Shown here: one piece after another, positions 14,825 to 40,512 of the stretch | How the letters are laid out: each line of letters starts with the position of its first letter | How positions within the stretch are numbered: the stretch's first letter is position 1 | From: Oscillospiraceae bacterium | GTDB lineage: Bacteria > Bacillota > Clostridia > UBA1381 | Direction: 5' to 3' | Assembly: GCA_022509025.1 (NCBI GenBank) | Contig: JAFLUB010000023.1 | Coordinates: 1-40,755, forward strand | DNA: 40,755 bases | Position numbers and translations under genes: made by a program | The notes under the pieces: model-generated | The model's input: the letters and a program-made list of their open reading frames with translations, nothing else | The model's database searches: none | Told to the model about the DNA's origin: nothing

Positions 14825-17800
14825 ATGAAGAAAAGGATTTTGATAATGTTAGCGGTAATGGCGGCGATGCTGTCATTTACGGCGGCAACGGCAAGCGCTG
14901 AGACAGTAAAGGATTGGTATTTGTATTTTGATGCTTCCACCGGTACAATCACAGATTGTCACACTGCTGCGCGCGGTGATTTAATTATTCCGAGCGAAAT
15001 AGACGGTGTTGCCGTTACAAGCATCGGCAAAAATGCATTCGAAGACTGCACAGGAATAACCAGTGTAACAATCCCCGATAGTGTAACCAGTATCGGCAAT
15101 TACGCATTTAATAAGTGTTATGGGTTAACTAGTGTAACAATCCCCAACAGTGTGGCAAGCATTGGTCTTCGTGCCTTTCAGAGATGTGTTGGACTAACCG
15201 ACATAATGATTGCTGACGGCGCGACAAGCACCGGCACCTATATGTTTGCTGACTGTACAGGACTAACCAGCGTAACGATTCCCGACAGCATGACAAGTAT
15301 CGGCACAGGCACGTTTAGTGGTTGTACAGGATTAACCAGCATAACCATTCCCAACAGCGTGACAACCATCGACCAGAGCGCGTTTAGTGGTTGTACAGGA
15401 TTAACCAGCATAACAATTCCCGATAGCGTAAAAAACATTGAAGCGGAAGCATTTAAAGACTGCACGGGATTAACCGACGTAACAATTTCCGATGGTGTGA
15501 CATTCATTCGGCGTGAAGCATTTAGCGGTTGTACAGGATTAACCGAAATAACCATTCCCGACAGCGTGACAAGTATTACTGACACTACGTTTGAAAATTG
15601 TAGTAATATAGAAAAAATCATCGTGAGTTCCGAAAATACCAGATACAAAGATGAAGATGGAGTTCTCTTTGATAAATCCGGTACGGAAATCATATACTAT
15701 CCGCGCAAAAAGCAAGGTCATTACAGTATCCCCGACGGTGTAACCCGTATTGGCGATTATGCGTTTAGCGGTTGTACAGGATTAACCGGCATAACCATCC
15801 CCAATAGCGTGAAAAGCATTACCGGGTACTCGTTTAGTGGTTGTACAGGATTAACCGACATAACCATTCCCAATAGCGTGACAAGCCTTGGCGCAGGTAC
15901 ATTTGAAAACTGCACAGGATTAACCAGCATAACTATCCCTGACGGTGTAACAAGTGTCGGCGGAGCAACATTTAGGGGATGCACCGGATTAACAGATGTA
16001 ACAATCCCTAATAGTGTGACAAGTCTTAGCGGATTTAAAAACTGCACAGCTTTAACCGGCATAACCATCCCCGACAGCGTGACAACTATTAACAACGAAG
16101 CATTTAGAGGTTGCACAGCATTGACTAGTATTACAATACCGGATAGTGTCACCAACCTTGGCGAAAACGCTTTTCGTGAATGTTCTAAATTGAGGAAAGT
16201 AGTTATCGGCAATGGATTAAAAACTACCGGCAGATATGTATTTGACGGCTCTCCCGTATCACATGTATATTATAAGGGCAGTGAGGAGGAATGGACTGCG
16301 CTTAAAATTTCTCTCTTATCCAATGCACAATGGCATTATAACAGTGATGGAGACGAGCAAGAGCCCGAATCCAACATAGAGTATCTGAGCTTCGACAGCG
16401 AAACCGGTGTTATCACCGGATGTGATAACAGAATAAGCGGCGACCTGGTGATACCGTCAGAAATAGATGGAGTAAAAGTAGAAGAGATTAAGTCGTATGC
16501 ATTTTACAATTGCAGAGGATTAACCGGCATAACCATCCCCGATGATGTGACAGAGATTGGTAATTATGCATTTTATAACTGTACAGGATTAACCAGCATA
16601 ATCCTTCCCAATGGCATGACACGCATTTCTCGTCAGTTGTTTTATAACTGTAATGAATTAACCAGCATAACAATTCCTGATAGTGTGACAACTATTGGCG
16701 AATCTGCATTTTGGGATTGTACAGGATTAACCGGCATAACCATACCCAATAGCGTAACAACCATAGAAAGTGATGCATTCAGAGGTTGCACAGGATTGAC
16801 TGAAATAACAATTCCCGACAGCGTGACAACTATTGGCGGTGGGGGAGCTGGCGGTAGTATATTTGCCGAGTGTACAGGACTAACCAGTGTAACCCTTCCG
16901 GATGGCATAACAAGTCTTGGTGATATTGGTTTTGAGGGTATTGAATTTAGTATGTGTACTTTTGGAGGTTGTACGAGTTTAACTGAAATCAATATCCCCG
17001 ATAGTGTGACAATTATCGGCGATCATGCATTCGCCGGTTGTGCGAGTCTAACTGAAATTGACATTCCCGATAGTGTAACACAAATTGGAAATTATGCATT
17101 TTATGAATGCGGCGGTTTAACCAATGTAACCATCCCCGATGGAGTGACAGAAATTGGAAATTATGCATTTTTTAACTGTACGGGTTTAACCGAAATCAAC
17201 ATCCCTGACAGTGTAACTAGTATTGGTGGTGGTTTTGCATTTTGGGGTTGTACAGGATTAACCGAAATAACTATATCTGACAGCGTGACAAATATTCATG
17301 GTACATTTATCACTTCTGATAATATAGAAGAGGTCAACATTAGTCCTGAAAGTTCTTGCTATAAAGTAGAAGATAGAGTTGTTTATAATAAAGCCGGTAC
17401 AGCTGTAATATACTGCCCTCCGAAAAAACAAGGCAACCACAGTATTTCTGACGGAGTTATAAGCATTGACGAGTATGCATTTAGCGGTTGTACAGAATTA
17501 ACCGAAATAATCATACCCGATAGTGTGACAAGCATTGGCGATGGTGCGTTTAGCGGTTGTACAGGATTAACCGAAATAATCATACCCGATAGTGTGACAA
17601 GCATTGGCGATGGTGCGTTTAGCGGTTGTACAGGATTAACCGAAATAATCATTCCCGATAGTGTGACAAGCATTGGCGATAGTGCGTTTAGCGGTTGCAC
17701 AGGATTAACCAATATAACAATTCCTGACGGTGTAACCGGCATTGGAGATTCTACGTTTAAAAATTGTACAGCCTTAACTGTCATAACTATGCAGGATAGC

Positions 17801-18385
17801 GTGACAAGTATTGGTAGTAACGCATTTGAAAACTGCACTGAACTGACAAGCGTTGCGCTACCTGAAACTGTGACAAGTATCGGTTCGAGTGCATTTAAAT
17901 CTTGTATTGGCTTAAACAATATTGTTATCCATAATAGCATGACAAGCATTAGTTCTAATGCATTTAGTGATTGCAAATCTCTTAAAGATGTGTATTACGG
18001 TGGAAATGAAAATGAATGGAAAGCTATAACTATAAGCAGTGGAAACAATTATCTTACTAATGCAACAATCCACTACAATACACTGCCCGAACCGGAGCCG
18101 GAGGATGTTGTTATAGATGATGTGGCTGTTGAAAAGACAACTACCGGTTATAAGATTACTGTTAAACTTGAAGAAGCGCCGACAGCGAAATGCGCGCTTA
18201 TTACCGCATTGTATAACGGAGATGAAAGCACCGGACTTGCAACATCAGCCTTCAATTCCGACACGTCGGAGAAAACCGTTGAGGTTATGGCGAATACTTC
18301 CGATACGGCAAGAATATTTATATGGAACAGTCTTAAAGGTATGCGTCCGCTTTGCGGAGCCCAAACCGTGAATATAACACAATAA
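14825..18385 (+). CDS. Secreted BspA-like leucine-rich-repeat protein (LRR_5)
   Basis: A 1186-residue exported protein, probably surface-associated and acting in adhesion or host/substrate binding as other BspA-like proteins do. A signal peptide (about 1-26) is followed by two arms of 23-residue repeats of the type IGDGAFSGCTGLTEIIIPDS. Each arm starts with the same module (FDASTGTITDC and FDSETGVITGC, each followed by IPSEIDGV). Each arm also contains one insert ending in a KKQGxxSI motif and one YY.G...EW module, so the protein looks like an internal duplication. The C-terminal 90 residues are a separate beta-type domain. No LPXTG motif is visible, so anchoring is unclear. The start at 14825 has AGAAAGG 9 bases upstream; an ATG at 14816 overlaps that site. 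Confidence 0.93.
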   Translation: MKKRILIMLAVMAAMLSFTAATASAETVKDWYLYFDASTGTITDCHTAARGDLIIPSEIDGVAVTSIGKNAFEDCTGITSVTIPDSVTSIGNYAFNKCYGLTSVTIPNSVASIGLRAFQRCVGLTDIMIADGATSTGTYMFADCTGLTSVTIPDSMTSIGTGTFSGCTGLTSITIPNSVTTIDQSAFSGCTGLTSITIPDSVKNIEAEAFKDCTGLTDVTISDGVTFIRREAFSGCTGLTEITIPDSVTSITDTTFENCSNIEKIIVSSENTRYKDEDGVLFDKSGTEIIYYPRKKQGHYSIPDGVTRIGDYAFSGCTGLTGITIPNSVKSITGYSFSGCTGLTDITIPNSVTSLGAGTFENCTGLTSITIPDGVTSVGGATFRGCTGLTDVTIPNSVTSLSGFKNCTALTGITIPDSVTTINNEAFRGCTALTSITIPDSVTNLGENAFRECSKLRKVVIGNGLKTTGRYVFDGSPVSHVYYKGSEEEWTALKISLLSNAQWHYNSDGDEQEPESNIEYLSFDSETGVITGCDNRISGDLVIPSEIDGVKVEEIKSYAFYNCRGLTGITIPDDVTEIGNYAFYNCTGLTSIILPNGMTRISRQLFYNCNELTSITIPDSVTTIGESAFWDCTGLTGITIPNSVTTIESDAFRGCTGLTEITIPDSVTTIGGGGAGGSIFAECTGLTSVTLPDGITSLGDIGFEGIEFSMCTFGGCTSLTEINIPDSVTIIGDHAFAGCASLTEIDIPDSVTQIGNYAFYECGGLTNVTIPDGVTEIGNYAFFNCTGLTEINIPDSVTSIGGGFAFWGCTGLTEITISDSVTNIHGTFITSDNIEEVNISPESSCYKVEDRVVYNKAGTAVIYCPPKKQGNHSISDGVISIDEYAFSGCTELTEIIIPDSVTSIGDGAFSGCTGLTEIIIPDSVTSIGDGAFSGCTGLTEIIIPDSVTSIGDSAFSGCTGLTNITIPDGVTGIGDSTFKNCTALTVITMQDSVTSIGSNAFENCTELTSVALPETVTSIGSSAFKSCIGLNNIVIHNSMTSISSNAFSDCKSLKDVYYGGNENEWKAITISSGNNYLTNATIHYNTLPEPEPEDVVIDDVAVEKTTTGYKITVKLEEAPTAKCALITALYNGDESTGLATSAFNSDTSEKTVEVMANTSDTARIFIWNSLKGMRPLCGAQTVNITQ
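17501..17707 (+). repeat. Three near-identical 69-bp tandem repeats within the LRR gene
   Basis: Units starting at 17501, 17570 and 17639 each encode one 23-residue LRR. The first two are identical apart from one base in the shared flank, and the third differs at a few positions. Other repeats in the gene are far more diverged, so these are recent duplications and could vary in copy number. Confidence 0.9.
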
Positions 18386-23252: not shown

Positions 23253-23413
23253 TTTTTCAAGCCTCCAATATAAGTATTGTCAAAATCACCTTAATTAATA
23301 CTTGTTACAGCATTTCCTGTACTTTGATTATATAATATAGCATACTTTTGACATTGGTATGAATTAAATGTAAATAGAAATCATATATTTTATGAATAAA
23401 TTGTTAACAAGTA

Positions 23414-23442
23414 TTGACAAGTGTCTATAATAAGAATAAAAT
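23414..23442 (+). promoter_or_regulatory. Sigma-A promoter of polA
   Basis: TTGACA (23414-23419) and TAAAAT (23437-23442) are 17 bases apart. The start would be near 23449, giving a structured leader of about 165 nt before polA. Confidence 0.85.
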
Positions 23443-23454
23443 ATAAACATATAA

Positions 23455-23477
23455 TTGCAAATGCAAATTATTTGCAA
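23455..23477. promoter_or_regulatory. Candidate Fur-family operator between htrA and polA
   Basis: TGCAAAT-T-ATTTGCA (23462-23476) is a perfect 7-1-7 palindrome, the geometry of Fur/Zur/PerR boxes. A further TTGCAAAT half-site lies directly upstream. It is just downstream of the polA -10 box. A zur-like gene lies in the same window, and its leader carries a related GCAAAT-GCA-ATTTGC palindrome (29194-29208). The half-site differs from known B. subtilis boxes, so assignment is inference. Confidence 0.35.
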
Positions 23478-23597
23478 TTAACGGGAAGAATGAGCGGCGC
23501 ATCTCACCCTTTTTCGGGACTTGAAGTATCAATATACGTCAGCGTCCCTCAAAAGAGCAATCTGCTTGCGCATTTTCCACGTTATCAAGTGTGATAA
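23478..23597 (+). repeat. Structured repeat element, copy A (upstream of polA)
   Basis: This shares a core of about 95 bases (GGCGCATCTCACCCTTT ... TTTTCCACGTTAT) with copies upstream of znuC and zur. Nested stems: CTTTT/AAAAG (23509-23513, 23551-23555), GGGAC/GTCCC (23516-23520, 23544-23548) and GTAT/ATAC (23526-23529, 23534-23537, loop CAAT). A TTATCA-AGTG-TGATAA hairpin (23582-23597) lies just before the polA ribosome site. The GGGAC/GTCCC pair is replaced by GGAAC/GTTCC in copy C, a compensatory change. The element is in the leader of polA. A 34-codon reading frame (23490-23594) also runs through it. Confidence 0.75.
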
Positions 23598-23613
23598 GAA
23601 GAAAGGAAAAAAC

Positions 23614-26229
23614 ATGAAAAAACTGCTTATTATTGACTCAAACAGTATTCTGAACAGAGCGTTTTACGGAGTGCGGTATCTGAGCGCGAAAGACGGTACG
23701 CCGACAAACGCTATATACGGATTTTTGAATATTCTTTTAAAGCTTATAAAGGAGCAGGAGCCGGATTATATATGCGCCGCGTTTGATGTGAAGGCTCCGA
23801 CCTTCCGTCATAAGCAGTATGAGGGATATAAGGCGCAGCGTAAGCCTATGCCGGAGGGCTTGGCGGTACAGATGCCGCTCATGAAGGAAGTTCTTGGCGC
23901 TATGGGTATAACAATCCTCGAAAAAGAGGGCTATGAGGCTGATGATATTATAGGAACTGTTGCAAGACTTTGTTCCCAGAGCGGCATCAGCTGTTTTATT
24001 GCCACGGGCGATAAGGATGATTTGCAGCTTGCTGACGATAAGACAAGGGTAATTCTGACTGTCACAAAATCAGGTTATAACGAAACAATTGTTTATGACG
24101 AAGATGCTGTAAAGGAGCGTTACCATGTAACGCCGAAGGAGTTTATTGACGTGAAGGCGCTTATGGGCGACCCGTCTGATAATATTCCGGGCGTTAAGGG
24201 CATAGGCGAAAAGACGGCAATGAGTCTTATCGAAAAATACCACAGCATAGAATATATATATGATAACATTGACGCAATAGACCTTAAGGGCGCAATGCTC
24301 CAAAAGCTTAAAGACGGACGCGATATGGCATTCATGTCAAAGGAGCTTGCCACTATAGATGTTCATACGCCTATTGAGTTTTCTGCGGAAGACTGCGTAT
24401 TTAACGGTTTTAATGAGAACGACGGGCTATATGATATTTTAAGACGTCTTGAACTTAACAGTATTATTAAGAAGCTTGACCTATCACCTGAGCAGGGCAG
24501 GGAAACAGCGCATGAGGATATTTTTGAAGGCTTTTCATATGCTGCGGCTGAAAATCTGTCTGCTATCACTGATAAAAAGCTTCCTTTAGTGTTAGATTTT
24601 AACGGTGACAGAATTTCTGCTATTGCCGCCGCGTCAGGTAAAAATGCGGTAGTGGTTTCGGGTGAGAATGCTGAAAAATGCGCAAAGGCAATCCTTGAAG
24701 ACAGCGGCATAGAAAAAATCCTTTTTGACGCGAAAGAAACTATTGTAAAGCTAAGCGGTAAGATTGAGATAAAGAATATGTCAGACGATACTGCGATTGC
24801 CGCATATCTCACAGACCCGGCAAGAAATGAATACACGATTGAGAGATTAACCGCTGATTATTTCGGTGTTGAAATTGAGAAGCCCGAGGCAAAGCAGCTT
24901 TCCCTGCTTGATGATGACGAAAGTGACAGAGGCGAGTATCTTGCCAAGTGCGCGGTTGCTCTCGGTTTGCTTAATGAGCGTATCAATAAAAAAATAGAAG
25001 AAAACGGACAGGAAAAACTCTACCGTGAAGTGGAGCTTCCGCTTGTTGAGGTGCTTGCGCATCTGGAAATAAACGGTTTCCTTGTGGACGATGCGCAGCT
25101 TAAGGAATTTTCAAAAAAGCTTGCGGCGAAGATTGACGCATTGACAAACGAGATTTATATGCTTGCCGGTGAGGAGTTTAATATCAATTCTCCGAAGCAG
25201 CTCGGCGTTATACTTTTTGAAAAGCTGAATCTTACGCCGGTTAAGAAAACGAAAACAGGCTATGCCACAAATGTTGATGTGCTTGAGAAGCTCAAGGATA
25301 AACATCCGATAATCGGTTTCCTGATGGAATACCGTCAGCTTACGAAGCTCAAAAGCACTTATTGTGACGGGCTTGCGGCTGTGATTAATCCCGAGACACA
25401 CCGTATACATTCCGTATTCACGCAGACCGTGACTGTTACAGGCAGACTGTCATCAACTGAGCCGAACTTGCAGAATATACCAACCCGCACGGAATTAGGA
25501 CGCGAGATACGCAAGATGTTTGTCGCAAGGGAAGGCTATGTGCTTGTGGACGCGGACTATTCGCAGATTGAACTCCGCGTACTCGCGCATATAGCTGATG
25601 ACGAGACTATGATAGAGGCATTCAAAAACGACGAGGATATCCATGCGGTTACAGCGTCGCAGGTACTCGGCATACCGCTTGATGAAGTGACAAAGGAACA
25701 GCGTTCAAGCGCGAAGGCGGTTAATTTCGGTATCGTCTACGGCATAGGAGAGTTTTCTCTGTCTCAGGATTTGAAAATTTCCGTAAAGGAAGCGAAAGCG
25801 TATATTGACGGATATCTTGAAAAATATCATGGCGTGCGTAATTATATGGAAAATATCAGAGAACAGGCGAAAAAGGACGGATACGTGAAAACCATGATGA
25901 ACAGGATACGCTATATTCCTGAGTTGAAATCACCGAATTATAATATACGTCAGTTCGGCGAGCGTGTCGCGCTCAATACACCCATACAGGGCAGCGCGGC
26001 GGATATCATAAAGCTTGCGATGGTAAGAACGGATAACAGACTTATAAGGGAAAATATGAAATCACGGCTTATTCTTCAGGTACACGACGAGCTGATTGTC
26101 GAGGCGCATGAGGATGAGGTGGAGCAGGTAAAGAAGATACTGCTTGAAGAAATGCAGGGCGCAATGGAGCTTCGTGTGCCGCTTAAGGTGGATATGTCGG
26201 TAGGCCATAGCTGGTATGATGCAAAGTAA
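23614..26229 (+). CDS. polA: DNA polymerase I
   Basis: Fills gaps and removes RNA primers in replication and repair. The 871-residue protein has an N-terminal 5'-3' exonuclease (about 1-290, LLIIDSNSILNRAFYGV with DDLQLADD further on). The middle 3'-5' exonuclease fold (about 300-465) lacks the catalytic DxE at its start, where LVLDFNGD is found, so proofreading is probably lost, as in Bacillus Pol I. The polymerase domain has motif A DADYSQIELR (about 645), motif B KAVNFGIVYG (about 701) and motif C QVHDE (about 822). The start at 23614 has AGAAAGG 7 bases upstream. The frame extends 31 codons further up through the repeat element, which is not conserved polymerase sequence. The stop codon lies inside a 10-bp hairpin. 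Confidence 0.97.
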   Translation: MKKLLIIDSNSILNRAFYGVRYLSAKDGTPTNAIYGFLNILLKLIKEQEPDYICAAFDVKAPTFRHKQYEGYKAQRKPMPEGLAVQMPLMKEVLGAMGITILEKEGYEADDIIGTVARLCSQSGISCFIATGDKDDLQLADDKTRVILTVTKSGYNETIVYDEDAVKERYHVTPKEFIDVKALMGDPSDNIPGVKGIGEKTAMSLIEKYHSIEYIYDNIDAIDLKGAMLQKLKDGRDMAFMSKELATIDVHTPIEFSAEDCVFNGFNENDGLYDILRRLELNSIIKKLDLSPEQGRETAHEDIFEGFSYAAAENLSAITDKKLPLVLDFNGDRISAIAAASGKNAVVVSGENAEKCAKAILEDSGIEKILFDAKETIVKLSGKIEIKNMSDDTAIAAYLTDPARNEYTIERLTADYFGVEIEKPEAKQLSLLDDDESDRGEYLAKCAVALGLLNERINKKIEENGQEKLYREVELPLVEVLAHLEINGFLVDDAQLKEFSKKLAAKIDALTNEIYMLAGEEFNINSPKQLGVILFEKLNLTPVKKTKTGYATNVDVLEKLKDKHPIIGFLMEYRQLTKLKSTYCDGLAAVINPETHRIHSVFTQTVTVTGRLSSTEPNLQNIPTRTELGREIRKMFVAREGYVLVDADYSQIELRVLAHIADDETMIEAFKNDEDIHAVTASQVLGIPLDEVTKEQRSSAKAVNFGIVYGIGEFSLSQDLKISVKEAKAYIDGYLEKYHGVRNYMENIREQAKKDGYVKTMMNRIRYIPELKSPNYNIRQFGERVALNTPIQGSAADIIKLAMVRTDNRLIRENMKSRLILQVHDELIVEAHEDEVEQVKKILLEEMQGAMELRVPLKVDMSVGHSWYDAK

Positions 26230-26523
26230 CTTTGCATAGCAAAGTTACGCAAGTATACGAGTCAAGCAAACGCATGGTCAAGCGACTTCACGAAGTGAAG
26301 TCGCGACACCATACGAGCGCACCGGTGTGACGTCATGAAGCGAAGCGGAATGACAAGGCAGCACAGCTGCCGCAACAAGGAGGCACACAGGCGAAGTATG
26401 GTCTGACCGGAGGTCAGCCAAAAGTATAAAGAATACTGATGTATATTCTTTGCGAAGCAAATCTGTTTGCCAGTTTGCGTCAATGCGAAGCATTGTGACG
26501 AAGTATACCGGCACGTAGTGCCG
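26226..26523. repeat. Array of about nine mini-hairpins, mostly with 3-nt loops, between polA and znuA
   Basis: Successive stems: GTAACTTTGC-ATA (26226-26248), GCGACTTCAC-GAA (26282-26304), GTCAT..ATGAC around GCGAAGC (26332-26354), GGCAGC-ACA (26357-26371), CTGACC-GGA (26403-26417). Then AAAGAATA/TATTCTTT (26428-26451), TTTGC-GAA (26449-26461), CGTCA/ATGC-GAA (26478-26500), and CGGCAC-GTA (26509-26523). Stem sequences differ, but the architecture repeats. Spacers repeatedly carry a GAAGTAT-like motif. No reading frame is credible in the 322-base gap. Confidence 0.85.
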
Positions 26524-26551
26524 AAGATATTGAAATGAAAGGAATCCATGC

Positions 26552-27394
26552 ATGAAAAAAATAATATTATTAATCACAGCATTATTTCTGCTTGCATCAT
26601 GCGCAAAATCGCATGAGCAGTCGGATAAATTACAGGTTTACACATCGTTCTATCCAATGTACGACTTCGCGCGCACGATAGGCGGCGATGACATTGACTT
26701 ATACAACATTGTCCCTGTCGGCACAGAGCCGCACGACTTTGAGCCTACGGCTGCGGATATGGCAAAGCTTAGTAAGGCTGATGTTTTCATATATAACGGA
26801 CGCGGAGTAGACGAATGGGCGGAGGATATCGCAAAAACTCTTCCGGATACGGTTTTTGTGATAAATACATCAGCGGCGCTTTCAACTTACTATGACGGCG
26901 ATCCGCACACGTGGCTGAGTCCGTTTTGTGCTGCTATGCAAGCAGAAAAGATTTGCAAATCACTTGAAACGGCAGATAGCCAAAACGCCGGGAAGTACCG
27001 TGAGCGCATGAACAGCTTATCATCTCAGCTTGATGAGCTTTACTGGGAATATTTCAATGCAGGTTTTGTGGGTATGAAATTATTCGTAACTCACGGTGCG
27101 TACAATGCGTTGTGCAAAGACTACGAAATGACACAGATAGCGCTTGAAGGCACAGCGGGCGAAAGTGACCCGTCACCCGCGCAGATGGCTGAGGTTGTCA
27201 ATCAGATTAAGGCTGATGGCGCGAAGTATATTTTCTACGACCCGCTTGAGGGTGACAAAACCGCTTCCGCCGCCGCTAAAGAGGCGGGGATAGAGACTCT
27301 GCCGCTCTATACATTTGAGGGCGACACTGAGAATAGAGACTACGTAACTGTTATGCGGTTTAATTTAGAGCAATTGAAAAAAGCTCGACAGTAA
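26552..27394 (+). CDS. znuA: Zinc/manganese ABC transporter substrate-binding lipoprotein
   Basis: The outer-face binding protein of a cluster A-I (ZnuA/TroA) metal importer. The 280-residue protein has a lipoprotein signal ending in LASC. Metal ligands expected in the family are present: GTEPHDFEP (His near residue 60), DPHTWLSP (His near 118), VTHGAYN (His near 181) and an acidic residue in YDPLEG (near 229). The His-rich loop seen in many ZnuA proteins is absent, so zinc and manganese cannot be told apart from this gene alone. The adjacent Zur/Fur-type regulator favours zinc. The start has AAAGG 9 bases upstream. The frame ends just 4 bases before the structured repeat that precedes znuC. 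Confidence 0.9.
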   Translation: MKKIILLITALFLLASCAKSHEQSDKLQVYTSFYPMYDFARTIGGDDIDLYNIVPVGTEPHDFEPTAADMAKLSKADVFIYNGRGVDEWAEDIAKTLPDTVFVINTSAALSTYYDGDPHTWLSPFCAAMQAEKICKSLETADSQNAGKYRERMNSLSSQLDELYWEYFNAGFVGMKLFVTHGAYNALCKDYEMTQIALEGTAGESDPSPAQMAEVVNQIKADGAKYIFYDPLEGDKTASAAAKEAGIETLPLYTFEGDTENRDYVTVMRFNLEQLKKARQ

Positions 27395-27398
27395 GGAG

Positions 27399-27539
27399 AT
27401 AACGTGAAAATAGACGGCGCATCTCACCCTTTATCGGAACTTGAAGTATCCGCATACGTCGGCGTTACTCAAAAGGGCGACCTGCTTGTCTCTTTCCCAC
27501 GTTATGATTTGTGCCGCAAAGCGGCGGAATGGAGAGAAA
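27399..27539 (+). repeat. Structured repeat element, copy B (between znuA and znuC)
   Basis: The 107-base core is bounded by perfect 8-bp inverted ends ATAACGTG (27399-27406) and CACGTTAT (27498-27505). Inner stems: CCCTTT/AAAGGG (27427-27432, 27472-27477), GGAAC/GTTAC (one mismatch; 27436-27440, 27464-27468), and GTAT/ATAC with loop CCGC. A GCCGC-AAA-GCGGC hairpin and GGAATGGAGAG follow, supplying the znuC ribosome site. A GTG at 27404, with AAGGAG upstream, opens a 58-codon frame through the whole element. Confidence 0.78.
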
Positions 27540-28280
27540 ATGGAACAGGAAATTTTAAAGGTTCAGAACCTGTGCTTTGAATACCCCGACACGTCCGTTC
27601 TGAGAGACGTAAATTTCGCGCTCAACAAGGGTGATTTCTTAGGTATAATCGGCGCAAACGGCGCGGGAAAAAGCACGCTTATAAAGCTTATACTTAAAAT
27701 ACTACCTCTCAGTGAGGGCAAAATAACGCTGTTTGGCGAGGACTTGGCGAAATTTCGTGATAATCACAAAATAGGCTATGTTTCCCAGAAAGCCAATTCA
27801 TTTAATTCGGATTTCCCGGCGACTGTTAAAGAGGTTGTTATGGCAAACCTCTACAGCAAGAAGGGGCTGTTCAGACGCTATACCCATGAGGATGAGGAAA
27901 AAATGCGCAGCGTTCTTAAAAAGGTTGGTATGGAGGAGTACGAAAATAAGCTTATAGGCTCACTTTCAGGCGGACAGCAGCAGCGTATTTTTATTGCGCG
28001 CGCTCTGATTTCTGAGCCTGAACTGTTACTCATGGACGAGCCGACTGTTGGCGTGGATGCAAAATCAGTAAAGCAGATAATGGAAATAATCTGTGAGCTT
28101 AATAAACATGGAATGACTATAATAATGACTAACCATGATACACCCGAGCTTGTGCGAGTATCGGGTAAGCTTCTGATATTCTGTGAACATGGCAACGGAG
28201 AGTTCGTGCGCCGCAACGACCTTACCGTGGAACAGGTAAACGATATATTTGCGGGAAGGAGGGCGCACCATCATGCTTGA
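27540..28280 (+). CDS. znuC: Zinc/manganese ABC transporter ATP-binding protein
   Basis: Energises the metal importer by ATP hydrolysis at the cytoplasmic face. The 246-residue protein has Walker A GANGAGKSTLI, Q-loop SQKAN, signature LSGGQQQRIFIARAL, Walker B LLLMDEPTVGVD and the H-loop TNHD, all intact. The true start is 27540, with GGAGAG upstream. The frame is open to 27441 only because it runs through the repeat element, in a different frame from the one open in copy A. The end overlaps znuB by 8 bases, implying coupled translation. It ends in GRRAHHHA, a His-rich tail that may touch metal. Confidence 0.95.
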   Translation: MEQEILKVQNLCFEYPDTSVLRDVNFALNKGDFLGIIGANGAGKSTLIKLILKILPLSEGKITLFGEDLAKFRDNHKIGYVSQKANSFNSDFPATVKEVVMANLYSKKGLFRRYTHEDEEKMRSVLKKVGMEEYENKLIGSLSGGQQQRIFIARALISEPELLLMDEPTVGVDAKSVKQIMEIICELNKHGMTIIMTNHDTPELVRVSGKLLIFCEHGNGEFVRRNDLTVEQVNDIFAGRRAHHHA

Positions 28281-29079
28281 GATTTTCGGATTTGATTTTA
28301 TGCGTCGCGCGTTTGTTGTCGCGGCGGTGATAGCGGTAATTGCGCCATGTATAGGTATGCCGCTTGTTTTAAAAAGACTTTCCGCGATAGGCGACGCGAC
28401 CTCACATTCGGCGCTTGCCGGAATCGCTTTGGGACTTGTTACAGGAGTAAATCCGATAGTGGGCGCTGTGGTATTTTCAATTATTGCGGTGCTTGGTATA
28501 GAAGCATTAAGACGAGTTTTCGGAAAATACTCGGAGATTGCGACGGTTGTGGTGATGTCAGCAGGAATAGGACTGACGGCGGTTTTGTCGGGATTTATAA
28601 CGAACGGCTCCGCGAACTTAAACAGCTTCCTGTTTGGCTCAATTGTTGCGATATCGGATTTTGAAATGTACTTAACAATAGGACTCGGCGCGGCGGTGAT
28701 AATCGTTTCGTTTCTGTTATATAAAGAGCTGTTCTTCGTCACGTTTGATGAGGAAGCCGCAAGGCTTGCCGGAGTGCCTGTGGGCGGGATAAACTTTGTT
28801 ATTATGGTTCTGACCGCAGTGACTGTGTCGGTAGCGTCAAGAATAGTCGGCGCGCTTATGATTTCCTCGCTTCTGGTAATACCTGTTGCAACAGCAATGA
28901 TGATAGCGAAAAGCTATAAAAAGACGCTGATTTTATCTGTAGTCTTAGCCGAGCTTTTCACAATTTCAGGATTGTTTGTATCATACTATCTGGATTTAAG
29001 ACCGGGCGGAACGATAGTGCTGATAGGAGTAATATTTCTTGTATGCTCTGCTATAATGACAGCAAAAAGAAGAAGGTGA
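28273..29079 (+). CDS. znuB: Zinc/manganese ABC transporter permease
   Basis: The membrane channel subunit (ABC-3 family) of the importer. The 268-residue protein has about eight membrane segments. Family features include AIGDATSHSALAGIALG near the N-terminus, VTFDEEAARLAGVPV in the cytoplasmic coupling region, and RIVGALMISSLLVIPVATA. The ATG at 28273 has AAGGAGG upstream and lies inside the znuC stop region. Its own stop is followed at once by copy C of the structured repeat and then the regulator gene. Confidence 0.95.
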   Translation: MLEIFGFDFMRRAFVVAAVIAVIAPCIGMPLVLKRLSAIGDATSHSALAGIALGLVTGVNPIVGAVVFSIIAVLGIEALRRVFGKYSEIATVVVMSAGIGLTAVLSGFITNGSANLNSFLFGSIVAISDFEMYLTIGLGAAVIIVSFLLYKELFFVTFDEEAARLAGVPVGGINFVIMVLTAVTVSVASRIVGALMISSLLVIPVATAMMIAKSYKKTLILSVVLAELFTISGLFVSYYLDLRPGGTIVLIGVIFLVCSAIMTAKRRR

Positions 29080-29268
29080 TTAACGTGAAAAATGAGCAGC
29101 GTATCTCACCCTTTATCGGAACTTGAAGTATAATCATACGACTGCGTTCCTTAAAAGGGCAATATACTTGGTCCCCGGTTGCATGGGCGAGCAGCAAATG
29201 CAATTTGCGACCAGCCTTTTCCACGTTGCAATTTGTGCCGCTATAATGTAGCGGAATGGAGGATTATT
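29080..29268 (+). repeat. Structured repeat element, copy C (between znuB and zur)
   Basis: The same core as copies A and B, with TTAACGTG and CCACGTT ends. Stems are CCCTTT/AAAGGG (29109-29114, 29154-29159), GGAAC/GTTCC (29118-29122, 29146-29150) and GTAT/ATAC with loop AATC. A foldable insertion of about 45 bases (29169-29213) is bounded by TGGTC/GACCA and contains GCAAAT-GCA-ATTTGC. A CCGCTA/TAGCGG hairpin and GGAATGGAGGA give the ribosome site of the regulator gene. Confidence 0.75.
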
Positions 29269-29673
29269 ATGGAAATAAATAGGATACTTTCGGGCGTAGG
29301 TCTTAAATGTACAAGACAGCGTATACAGGTTATGGAGATACTCCTTAAAAACTCCGCGCCTATGACGGCGGAGAATATATATGAGCTTACCGATGATATG
29401 TCTTTGTCCACAGTGTACAGGATTGCGGAAAAGCTTTTTGAAAAGGGTATAGTGAGTAAACACACTATACAGGACAGTGATAAGTTCTATTATGAAATTT
29501 CAGCCGATAAGCACCGTCATTACGCTATATGTCTTGAATGCGGACGCATGCGGCATATAAGTGTTTGCCCTGTAACTTCTCCGGCGATAGACGGTTTCAC
29601 TGTTACGGGACATAAGCTTGAGATATACGGATATTGTGATAAGTGTTCTGATATTATTGCCGATAAGGCGTAA
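29269..29673 (+). CDS. zur: Fur-family metal-dependent repressor, probably Zur
   Basis: A 134-residue DNA-binding repressor. The winged helix includes GLKCTRQRIQVMEILLKNSA and LSTVYRIAEKLFEKGIV. The dimerisation domain holds the regulatory site HRHYAIC and four structural zinc cysteines in CLECG and CDKC. Position directly after a zinc-type ABC operon makes Zur more likely than Fur or PerR, but specificity cannot be read from the sequence with certainty. The ATG at 29269 has GGAGG upstream; the frame is open further upstream only through the repeat element. It ends the operon at a strong terminator. Confidence 0.85.
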   Translation: MEINRILSGVGLKCTRQRIQVMEILLKNSAPMTAENIYELTDDMSLSTVYRIAEKLFEKGIVSKHTIQDSDKFYYEISADKHRHYAICLECGRMRHISVCPVTSPAIDGFTVTGHKLEIYGYCDKCSDIIADKA

Positions 29674-39807: not shown

Positions 39808-40512
39808 GTGTTAAAGAAACTTTTGAAGCTTACGGTATCAGTATCTGTCCTAATGTTTTTATTAGCAGTAACGGTTTGCGCGCAGACTATGTATATCGCA
39901 AACGTTAAGGACTCGGTTTATCTGAGAAAGGCTCCGGCTTCGGACGCGTATTACAAAACAATACCTGTCGGAACGGCAGTAAATAGCATAGGCTGGAAAA
40001 GGGGTAGCGACGGCGTAGGCTACAATCAGGTTGAATACAAGGGTCAGCGCGGTTGGGTTAAAACAGAATATCTTTCAAAAAATAAGCCCGGCAGCGGCAC
40101 TACCATGTATATCGCAAACGTTAAGGACTCGGTTTATCTGAGAAAAGCTCCCGCTTCGGATGAGCATTACACAACTATACCCGTTGGAGCGGCAGTAAAC
40201 AGCATAGGCTGGAAAAGGGGCAGCGACGGCGTAGGCTACAATCAGGTTGAATATAAGGGTCAGCGCGGCTGGGTCAAAACAGAATATCTTTCATATGGGG
40301 CGAGCAGTTCAATAACTGCAAGTAAGGCAAAGGAAATAGTAAGGTCCAAAAAGAAACTCGGCAGCAGCTCGCAGATAACGGCGAAAGATATGGGAAGTTA
40401 TTACCAGATAAATGTGCGTACTCCGTTTTATGACAACGGTCATAAGGAATGGGATGAATATTCATGCCGCATAGATAAAGCCACCGGTAATCTTTATGCT
40501 GAGGCAGGTTGA
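39808..40512 (+). CDS. Secreted protein with two bacterial SH3 domains
   Basis: A 234-residue exported protein likely to bind peptidoglycan or a wall polymer. A signal peptide (about 1-25) is followed by two almost identical bacterial SH3 domains, each starting MYIANVKDSVYLRKAPASD and ending GQRGWVKTEYLS. A C-terminal domain of about 60 residues (EIVRSKKKLGSSSQITAKDM and CRIDKATGNLYAEAG) weakly resembles PepSY. No enzymatic domain is present. The start is GTG, with AAAGGGGGA upstream. It has its own promoter. Confidence 0.88.
   Translation: MLKKLLKLTVSVSVLMFLLAVTVCAQTMYIANVKDSVYLRKAPASDAYYKTIPVGTAVNSIGWKRGSDGVGYNQVEYKGQRGWVKTEYLSKNKPGSGTTMYIANVKDSVYLRKAPASDEHYTTIPVGAAVNSIGWKRGSDGVGYNQVEYKGQRGWVKTEYLSYGASSSITASKAKEIVRSKKKLGSSSQITAKDMGSYYQINVRTPFYDNGHKEWDEYSCRIDKATGNLYAEAG
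39886..40293 (+). repeat. Direct duplication of the SH3-coding segment
   Basis: The segments from 39886 and from 40102 are offset by 216 bases (72 codons) and nearly identical at DNA level over about 190 bases, including synonymous sites. This is a recent in-frame duplication. Confidence 0.92.

Follow-up and report, generated by a model that had tools for sequence, protein, structure and literature searches.

A dispersed, covarying palindrome, probably mobile and often carrying a Shine-Dalgarno sequence before gene starts, in an Oscillospiraceae bacterium and its relatives

Integron attC sites are imperfect palindromes with a conserved structure and a free sequence, and are recombined as folded single strands. 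BOX repeats are built of boxA, boxB and boxC modules. Miniature inverted-repeat transposable elements (MITEs) of bacteria are described as a general class of short, non-coding, palindromic elements in the sections of PMC3049150 considered here. The same sections describe the BOX, RUP and SPRITE elements of pneumococcus as structured interspersed repeats that can be co-transcribed, show few relations to the functional classes of neighbouring genes, and are over-represented between convergent genes (PMC3049150). Repetitive extragenic palindromes (REPs) with RAYT transposases appear in the relevant part of another paper as GTAG-tagged extragenic palindromes of 20-40 bp, located mostly downstream of coding regions and presumed to be miniature transposons (PMC3733652). 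In this study, a hairpin repeat was analyzed that occurs three times (copies A, B and C) in contig JAFLUB010000023.1 of an Oscillospiraceae bacterium (GCA_022509025.1); the whole stretch of 40,755 nt is called the window. The repeat is an interspersed, covarying palindrome that probably spreads as a non-autonomous mobile element. Its tailed form typically lies between an upstream Shine-Dalgarno (SD)-like motif and a start codon, and carries a hairpin and a further SD at its 3' end.

The host assembly is a 2.49-Mb draft that is 87.55% complete, and a BLAST search with copy A gave 47 matches in it. A covariance model built from 81 copies gave 110 matches at E up to 0.001, which correspond to 80 distinct places, 30 of the matches being the palindrome hit a second time on the opposite strand; this search scored 150 of its 1446 first-look candidates, and a few of the 80 places are weak or partial. 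These numbers are far above chance. The three copies in the window, which precede polA, znuC and zur, belong to an extensive family of interspersed repeats and do not define a regulon for zinc or polA. An earlier note on this DNA had offered two readings, a cis-acting RNA family or a mobile palindromic element supplying ribosome sites, and had proposed a covariance-model search of related genomes to decide. The many dispersed copies favor the mobile repeat.

Copy A has matches in 14 of 41 genomes (the host and 40 relatives), every one in the host's family. In what follows, G-numbers denote genomes (G002, G006, G021 and others are relatives) and L-numbers individual loci or copies. At a threshold of 1e-5, with 13 candidates scored per genome, the covariance model matched 16 of 291 genomes of the class, nine of which, including the host, belong to the host's family. 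G287, from another family, has 12 matches of up to 120 bits, and such matches suggest horizontal spread. The exact core pattern was also present in two named records, RGIG8725 and Lapin-008, both of which are Clostridia metagenome-assembled genomes. The copies of G021 are nearly identical (10 aligned, mean identity 96.8%, range 93-99%). The 790,485 bases scanned in G002 contain 14 copies, two of them under 80 bits, and one deleted copy. No match to the repeat was found in phages and plasmids, and two scans of viral contigs for exact patterns were likewise negative; a phage or plasmid origin was dropped on these grounds.

Orthologous sites differ in the presence of the repeat. In a profile search, no copy was detected at the znuB loci of 28 relatives (the match with about 1.5 kb, a stretch that as a rule covers both the znuA-znuC and the znuB-zur junctions). 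The same type of search found a copy at one of 29 polA loci of relatives, namely in G021, which belongs to another genus and has its own copy; none at 19 loci of the gene behind L052; and none at 15 of 16 loci of the gene behind L024. Among 18 relatives' loci viewed, zur directly follows znuB in 10, and there the two genes overlap or are at most 8 nt apart; the corresponding gap in the window is 189 nt. Thirteen host junctions were viewed in G002, where 12 are unfilled, including that of L022, which faces a different insert; 11 are without any copy. Only L038 is filled in both genomes (counterpart L064). L285 marks a second site common to the host and a relative, with a deleted copy in L209, and G002 and G006 have at least three sites in common as judged by eye. 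The polA leaders of G002 and G006 (L117, L120) contain a different insert, a mirrored hairpin ggctcccctaataggggagc, at the same place as copy A. The repeat is insertional, and the insertion polymorphism between relatives is that of a MITE.

The core of the repeat is 106 nt long, begins with TAACGTGAAAAAT, ends with CACGTTA, and consists of nested stems. The outer helix TAACGTGAAAAATNNNC/GNNNNTTTTCCACGTTA is followed by GCA/TGC (3 bp between two conserved internal loops), CCCTTTT/AAAAGGG, GGAAC/GTTCC, and a nearly invariant GTAT/ATAC. Covariation was measured in an alignment of 81 copies, from which carriers of a 45-nt insert and partial copies were left out, except the tandem unit L051, which runs into the insert. 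Two-sided changes were present in 24 of 38 pairs, against a shuffled mean of 15.8; 261 cells were changed on both sides, against 70.7 after shuffling. The covariation score was 0.265, compared with 0.122 for shuffled and at most 0.096 for slid alignments. The palindrome structure is real; one modelled pair, columns 14-99, is unsupported (7 of 81 cells). The terminal inverted repeats TAACGTGAAAAAT/...TTTTCCACGTTA form an outer helix of 16 pairs in which 87.8% of cells are paired, as in a MITE, and the right inverted repeat is internal in tailed copies. Mismatches over 34 pairs comprise 115 A-C and 57 G-U cells, and four pairs hold half of the A-C cells. Selection on a sense-strand RNA would be expected to leave more G-U than A-C cells, the opposite of what is seen, so a DNA palindrome fits at least as well as an RNA.

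The ends of the repeat were analyzed in 114 copies from ten genomes with both ends and flank present. Excluded were incomplete copies, those in which another repeat takes the place of the left end, members of a second subfamily, and those with a left flank under 40-60 nt. In 65 of the 114 copies the core is followed by a tail, which consists of a GC-rich hairpin and AATGGAG(G)ATTA, and then by the host start codon. The tail stems vary and the pairing is kept (GCCGCC/GGCGGC, CGCTA/TAGCG, CGCTAC/GTAGCG, GAAGCCGC/GCGGCTTC). A start triplet lies 3-9 nt behind the tail SD in all 65, which is weak alone, with 1672 of 5543 GGAG sites in G002 having the same. Start triplets being common behind GGAG at large, open frames (at least 60 codons, or at least 40 if cut by the end of the stretch) were counted instead. 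Such a frame begins 5-12 nt behind the tail SD in 62 of the 65 tailed copies, and at 6 or 7 nt in 54; L045, L062 and L279 are without one. As a baseline, 760 of the 5543 GGAG sites in G002 (about 14%) have such a frame at 3-9 nt. In 34 of the 49 tail-less copies, a gene start and an SD lie within 130 nt. Of 77 host copies, 57 have, within 130 nt, a start codon in the sense direction that is accompanied by an SD and an open frame; the same criterion held at 1101 of 5266 random points and 113 of 326 random intergenic points. The stop codon of the upstream gene is often supplied by the repeat, as TAACGTGA contains TAA and TGA in two frames. The 57 downstream proteins had no common function that could be seen.

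The left end of the repeat is also marked by an SD-like sequence. GGAG or GAGG, counted per copy (an instance profile, which counts GGAGG twice, was dropped), occurs within 14 nt upstream in 42 of the 114 copies, and in the three preceding 14-nt windows in 6, 8 and 5. With a wider SD definition, a motif within 9 nt upstream was found in 43 of 65 tailed and 7 of 49 tail-less copies (an optimistic p of about 2e-8); with another tail detector the counts were 40 of 56 and 10 of 58, respectively. At repeat positions 5-7, a GTG is present in 42 of 50 copies with a left SD, compared with 25 of 64 without (p about 1e-6, likewise optimistic), and among tailed copies alone in 38 of 43 compared with 10 of 22. 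The distance from the left SD to this GTG is mostly 6-7 nt. The left end, TAAC-GTG-AAA-AAT, resembles the beginning of a gene placed at the usual distance from the SD upstream. Many internal frames read VKNKRRISPFFGT or similar; a conserved leader peptide is not claimed, as frame length varies between 3 and 77 codons and the pattern of substitutions is that of the stems. Judged from repeat-free relatives, the left SD is the gene's own in copies B and C, L049 and L052. Since tailed copies mostly have an SD-like motif to their left and have an SD in their tail, they lie in the spacer between SD and start codon and appear to exchange the one SD for the other. The tandem copy L104 of G021 reads catggaggat-TAACGTG, which brings the tail SD of one unit up to the GTG of its neighbor. 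A circular or tandem junction would be expected to read GGAGGATTAACGTG.

In the window, the earlier note had located the repeat at 23478-23597, 27399-27539 and 29080-29268, and a sequence check found all three copies there, with the features listed in Table 1. The compensatory change between GGGAC/GTCCC in copy A and GGAAC/GTTCC in copy C was seen as that note described it, as were the invariant GTAT/ATAC stem with loops CAAT, CCGC and AATC, the differing stems that precede the ribosome site (TTATCA/TGATAA in A, GCCGC/GCGGC in B, CCGCTA/TAGCGG in C), and the inverted-repeat ends ATAACGTG/CACGTTAT of copy B. Missing from it was the stem of copy B, GGAAC/GTTAC, in which one pair is broken. The genes directly behind the copies were identified with Pfam as polA (DNA_pol_A), znuC (ABC_tran, between ZnuA and ABC-3) and zur (FUR). 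Copy A has GGG instead of GTG at positions 5-7 and no SD-like motif on its left side; the SD-like AGAAAGGA follows its terminal hairpin at 23600-23607. Copy B now stands between the left-hand SD and znuC. The AGAAGGTGA before zur is retained in several repeat-free relatives.

Table 1. Coordinates in the window of the three repeat copies, the adjoining SD sequences and the genes behind them
Feature	Position	Strand	Basis
Copy A palindromic core, upstream of polA	23479..23584	+	sequence, BLAST, covariance model 113.3 bits
Copy A terminal hairpin TTATCA-AGTG-TGATAA, differs from the usual tail	23582..23597	+	sequence
polA	23614..26229	+	Pfam DNA_pol_A
Left-hand SD AAGGAG for znuC, overlaps znuA stop TAA (27392-27394)	27393..27398	+	sequence; repeat-free junction in relative G002
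Copy B palindromic core, between znuA and znuC; internal GTG 27404-27406	27400..27504	+	sequence, covariance model 102 bits, fold
Copy B tail hairpin GCCGC-AAA-GCGGC	27513..27525	+	sequence, fold
SD GGAG ending copy B; znuC start codon at 27540	27531..27534	+	sequence
znuC-like ABC ATPase, beside ZnuA and ABC-3	27540..28280	+	Pfam ABC_tran
Left-hand SD AAGG (of AGAAGGTGA) for zur, within the znuB end	29073..29076	+	sequence
Copy C palindromic core including an insert of ~45 nt, between znuB and zur; internal GTG 29085-29087	29081..29228	+	sequence, covariance model 76.9 bits
Copy C hairpin insert CCGGTTGC...GCGACCAGCC, ~45 nt, common to a subset of copies	about 29172..29216	+	alignment
Copy C tail hairpin CCGCTA-TAATG-TAGCGG	29238..29254	+	sequence
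SD GGAGG ending copy C; zur start codon at 29269	29258..29262	+	sequence
zur-like FUR-family regulator	29269..29673	+	Pfam FUR

The following mechanism is predicted. Some recombinase or transposase may act in trans on the folded DNA palindrome. After insertion, translation of a short leader frame within the repeat would start from the SD native to the gene, and translation of the gene from the tail SD of the repeat, so that insertion at the most sensitive spot of a gene would be tolerated. The SD-like sequence GGAGGAT is perhaps the exchange site, because the tail and head of tandem copies recreate the same SD-GTG junction. A more specific proposal, rated as less probable than not, is that the SD itself is the docking site: the repeat would integrate in the sense direction by GGAGGAT exchange, take the gene's SD for its GTG leader, and give the gene a new, hairpin-shielded SD. 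If so, every translation start in the genome would be a potential survivable landing site.

The positions of the copies might instead reflect selection. An ordinary MITE-like repeat without target preference could insert anywhere and persist, under selection, only in short intergenic gaps, its hairpin-SD tail incidentally allowing the following gene to be translated. In line with such a repeat, open frames occupy 90-98% of the G002 contigs, tight operon junctions hold many of the copies, 42 of the 49 tail-less copies are without a left SD, and a few placements are antisense or otherwise different. However, among the 28 copies that have at least 40 nt of unoccupied DNA upstream, 14 still follow an SD by no more than 9 nt, the place where an insertion should be most harmful, and the distance between SD and repeat is narrow (1-4 nt in 35 of the 42 copies with GGAG or GAGG). 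This explanation is considered unlikely. A cis-regulatory RNA family, either riboswitch-like or a protein-binding leader, that controls polA, zinc and other genes would account for the strong covariation, the conserved internal loops, the mostly sense position before start codons, the sites common to close relatives (three in G002/G006; L038 with L064; L285 with L209), and the copies in the polA leaders of two genera. Such a family is hard to reconcile with the absence of copies from 28 znuB loci, 28 of 29 polA loci and 12 of 13 G002 junctions, with 57 downstream proteins of no visible common function, or with the excess of A-C mismatches and the weak fold z-scores. The repeat was not recognized as any known riboswitch in the earlier note, and a search of the window against Rfam indeed gave nothing at the gathering threshold; with E up to 5 allowed, positions 23400-29400 gave a chance-level match alone (E 4.2, inside znuB). 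A conserved association with particular genes across species was not found, some sites being common to close relatives. A regulatory RNA or riboswitch was set aside on the grounds of site polymorphism, unrelated neighbors and the lack of an Rfam match, and is regarded as very improbable. Of the two readings in the earlier note, the mobile palindrome as a supplier of ribosome sites is borne out by the dispersed copies, the empty orthologous junctions and the repeat's own SD; the cis-acting RNA family gives way to site polymorphism, unrelated neighbors and the mismatch types.

Several observations weigh against a mobile element residing in the SD-start spacer. Only 50 of the 114 copies have a left SD, 49 are tail-less, and ownership of the left SD was compared with relatives at only four sites. 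The copies are related and form subfamilies with common features, so Fisher p-values overstate independence; a few sites common to G002 and G006 were counted twice. Among the 77 host copies, 20 have no gene start as defined above (these are partly tandem units, contig ends, and starts without a recognized SD), and four are antisense to a gene start (L261, L262, L277, L281). The G002 copy L216 lies behind a gene and ahead of a terminator-like hairpin. Single-sequence RNA folds are barely better than shuffles (z -0.86 for copy C and -0.56 for copy B). The empty sites might reflect loss in the relatives instead of gain. There is no consistent target-site duplication when copies are compared by eye with empty sites, and the TA at both ends belongs to the stem. 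Finally, neither a mobilizing enzyme nor a longer partner with matching ends was found, with Y1 transposases alone searched.

A Y1 transposase (RAYT or IS200/IS605) was rejected as the mobilizer after a comparison of the host and 26 other genomes, in which neither co-occurrence nor flanking copies were seen. The 31 Y1 loci (82,481 bases) contain no repeat copy, and the repeat-bearing drafts G006, G012, G114 and G142 gave no Y1 match. At L176 (G000:C18), a Y1 transposase gene with an open frame of 251 aa has repeats of its own, of the GGGGACGGTTCT type, on its flanks instead of the hairpin repeat. By eye, the left and right SD variants agree in wB, L039 and L070 and differ in L031, L047 and L057; because of the latter, the SD pair was rejected as a target-site duplication as a rule.

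The family is also diversified by inserts. In some host copies (L030, L033, L036, L045, L049, L052 and window 29172-29216), a hairpin module of ~45 nt, GGTTGCATGGGCGAGCAGCAAATGCAATTTGCGACCAGCC, is inserted into the 3' arm, always at the same position, and disrupts the outer pairing there. A second palindromic repeat of ~70 nt, AACCCGACCC...GGAACCTTGTTGTTTCACA, lies inside the GTAT loop of L018, L277 and L286 (G000) with ATAAG-like sequence on both sides, and substitutes for the left end in L266, L270, L272 and L278. Copies L068, L081 and L086 (G002, G006) and L082-L085 (G006) contain additional short palindromic inserts, which interrupt them at two constant sites, the GTAT loop and the position before CTCACC or its variants. 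Members of a second subfamily (L089, L107, L112, L114, L115, L190) have ends AAGTTTGAAAA or AGTCTGAAAA, a tail of about GTGAAAGGAGTTAATGG, and a similar architecture before gene starts. In L190, the same 13 bp, GAAAGGAATAAGT, is present on both sides as a direct repeat, which may be its tail. Two other repeats were observed elsewhere in the window: a 69-nt periodic repeat with at least 29 copies at 15002-17954, likely a gene for a leucine-rich-repeat protein, and a pair of 192-nt direct repeats, 92% alike, at 39886-40293.

A literature search limited to PMC brought up no repeat recognized as occupying the SD spacer. If confirmed, the arrangement proposed here would be a new survival strategy for mobile DNA and would naturally supply housekeeping genes with leader sequences and upstream frames; it would also be a reason why automated searches may report the repeat as a new regulatory RNA. 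Like integron attC sites, the repeat is an imperfect palindrome with a conserved structure and a free sequence; it differs in that no cassette genes were seen and the attC sequence boxes were not recognized by eye, the integrase not having been searched for. It resembles MITEs in being short (the 106-nt core plus tail or insert), palindromic, without a transposase gene, present in many copies, and present or absent at orthologous sites; it differs in having neither a consistent target-site duplication nor a parent transposon that could be found, and in often bearing an SD module in the SD-start spacer. Compared with REPs as portrayed in the source cited above, it likewise has an unpaired tetranucleotide at one end (GTAG in REPs; here, in many copies, the GGAG of the upstream SD). 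However, its core is 106 nt long, it lies mostly upstream of genes, and Y1 transposases do not track it; the aligned core has no GTAG tag, and the 31 Y1 loci include no repeat-flanked RAYT gene. With BOX, RUP and SPRITE it shares the character of a structured interspersed repeat in a Firmicute that may be co-transcribed and whose neighbors show little relation to functional classes. As far as the cited descriptions go, and by description only, those elements and REPs are concentrated in the gaps of convergent gene pairs or on the downstream side of genes, whereas the hairpin repeat lies mostly before gene starts, in the sense direction, often in the SD-start spacer and often bringing an SD with it.

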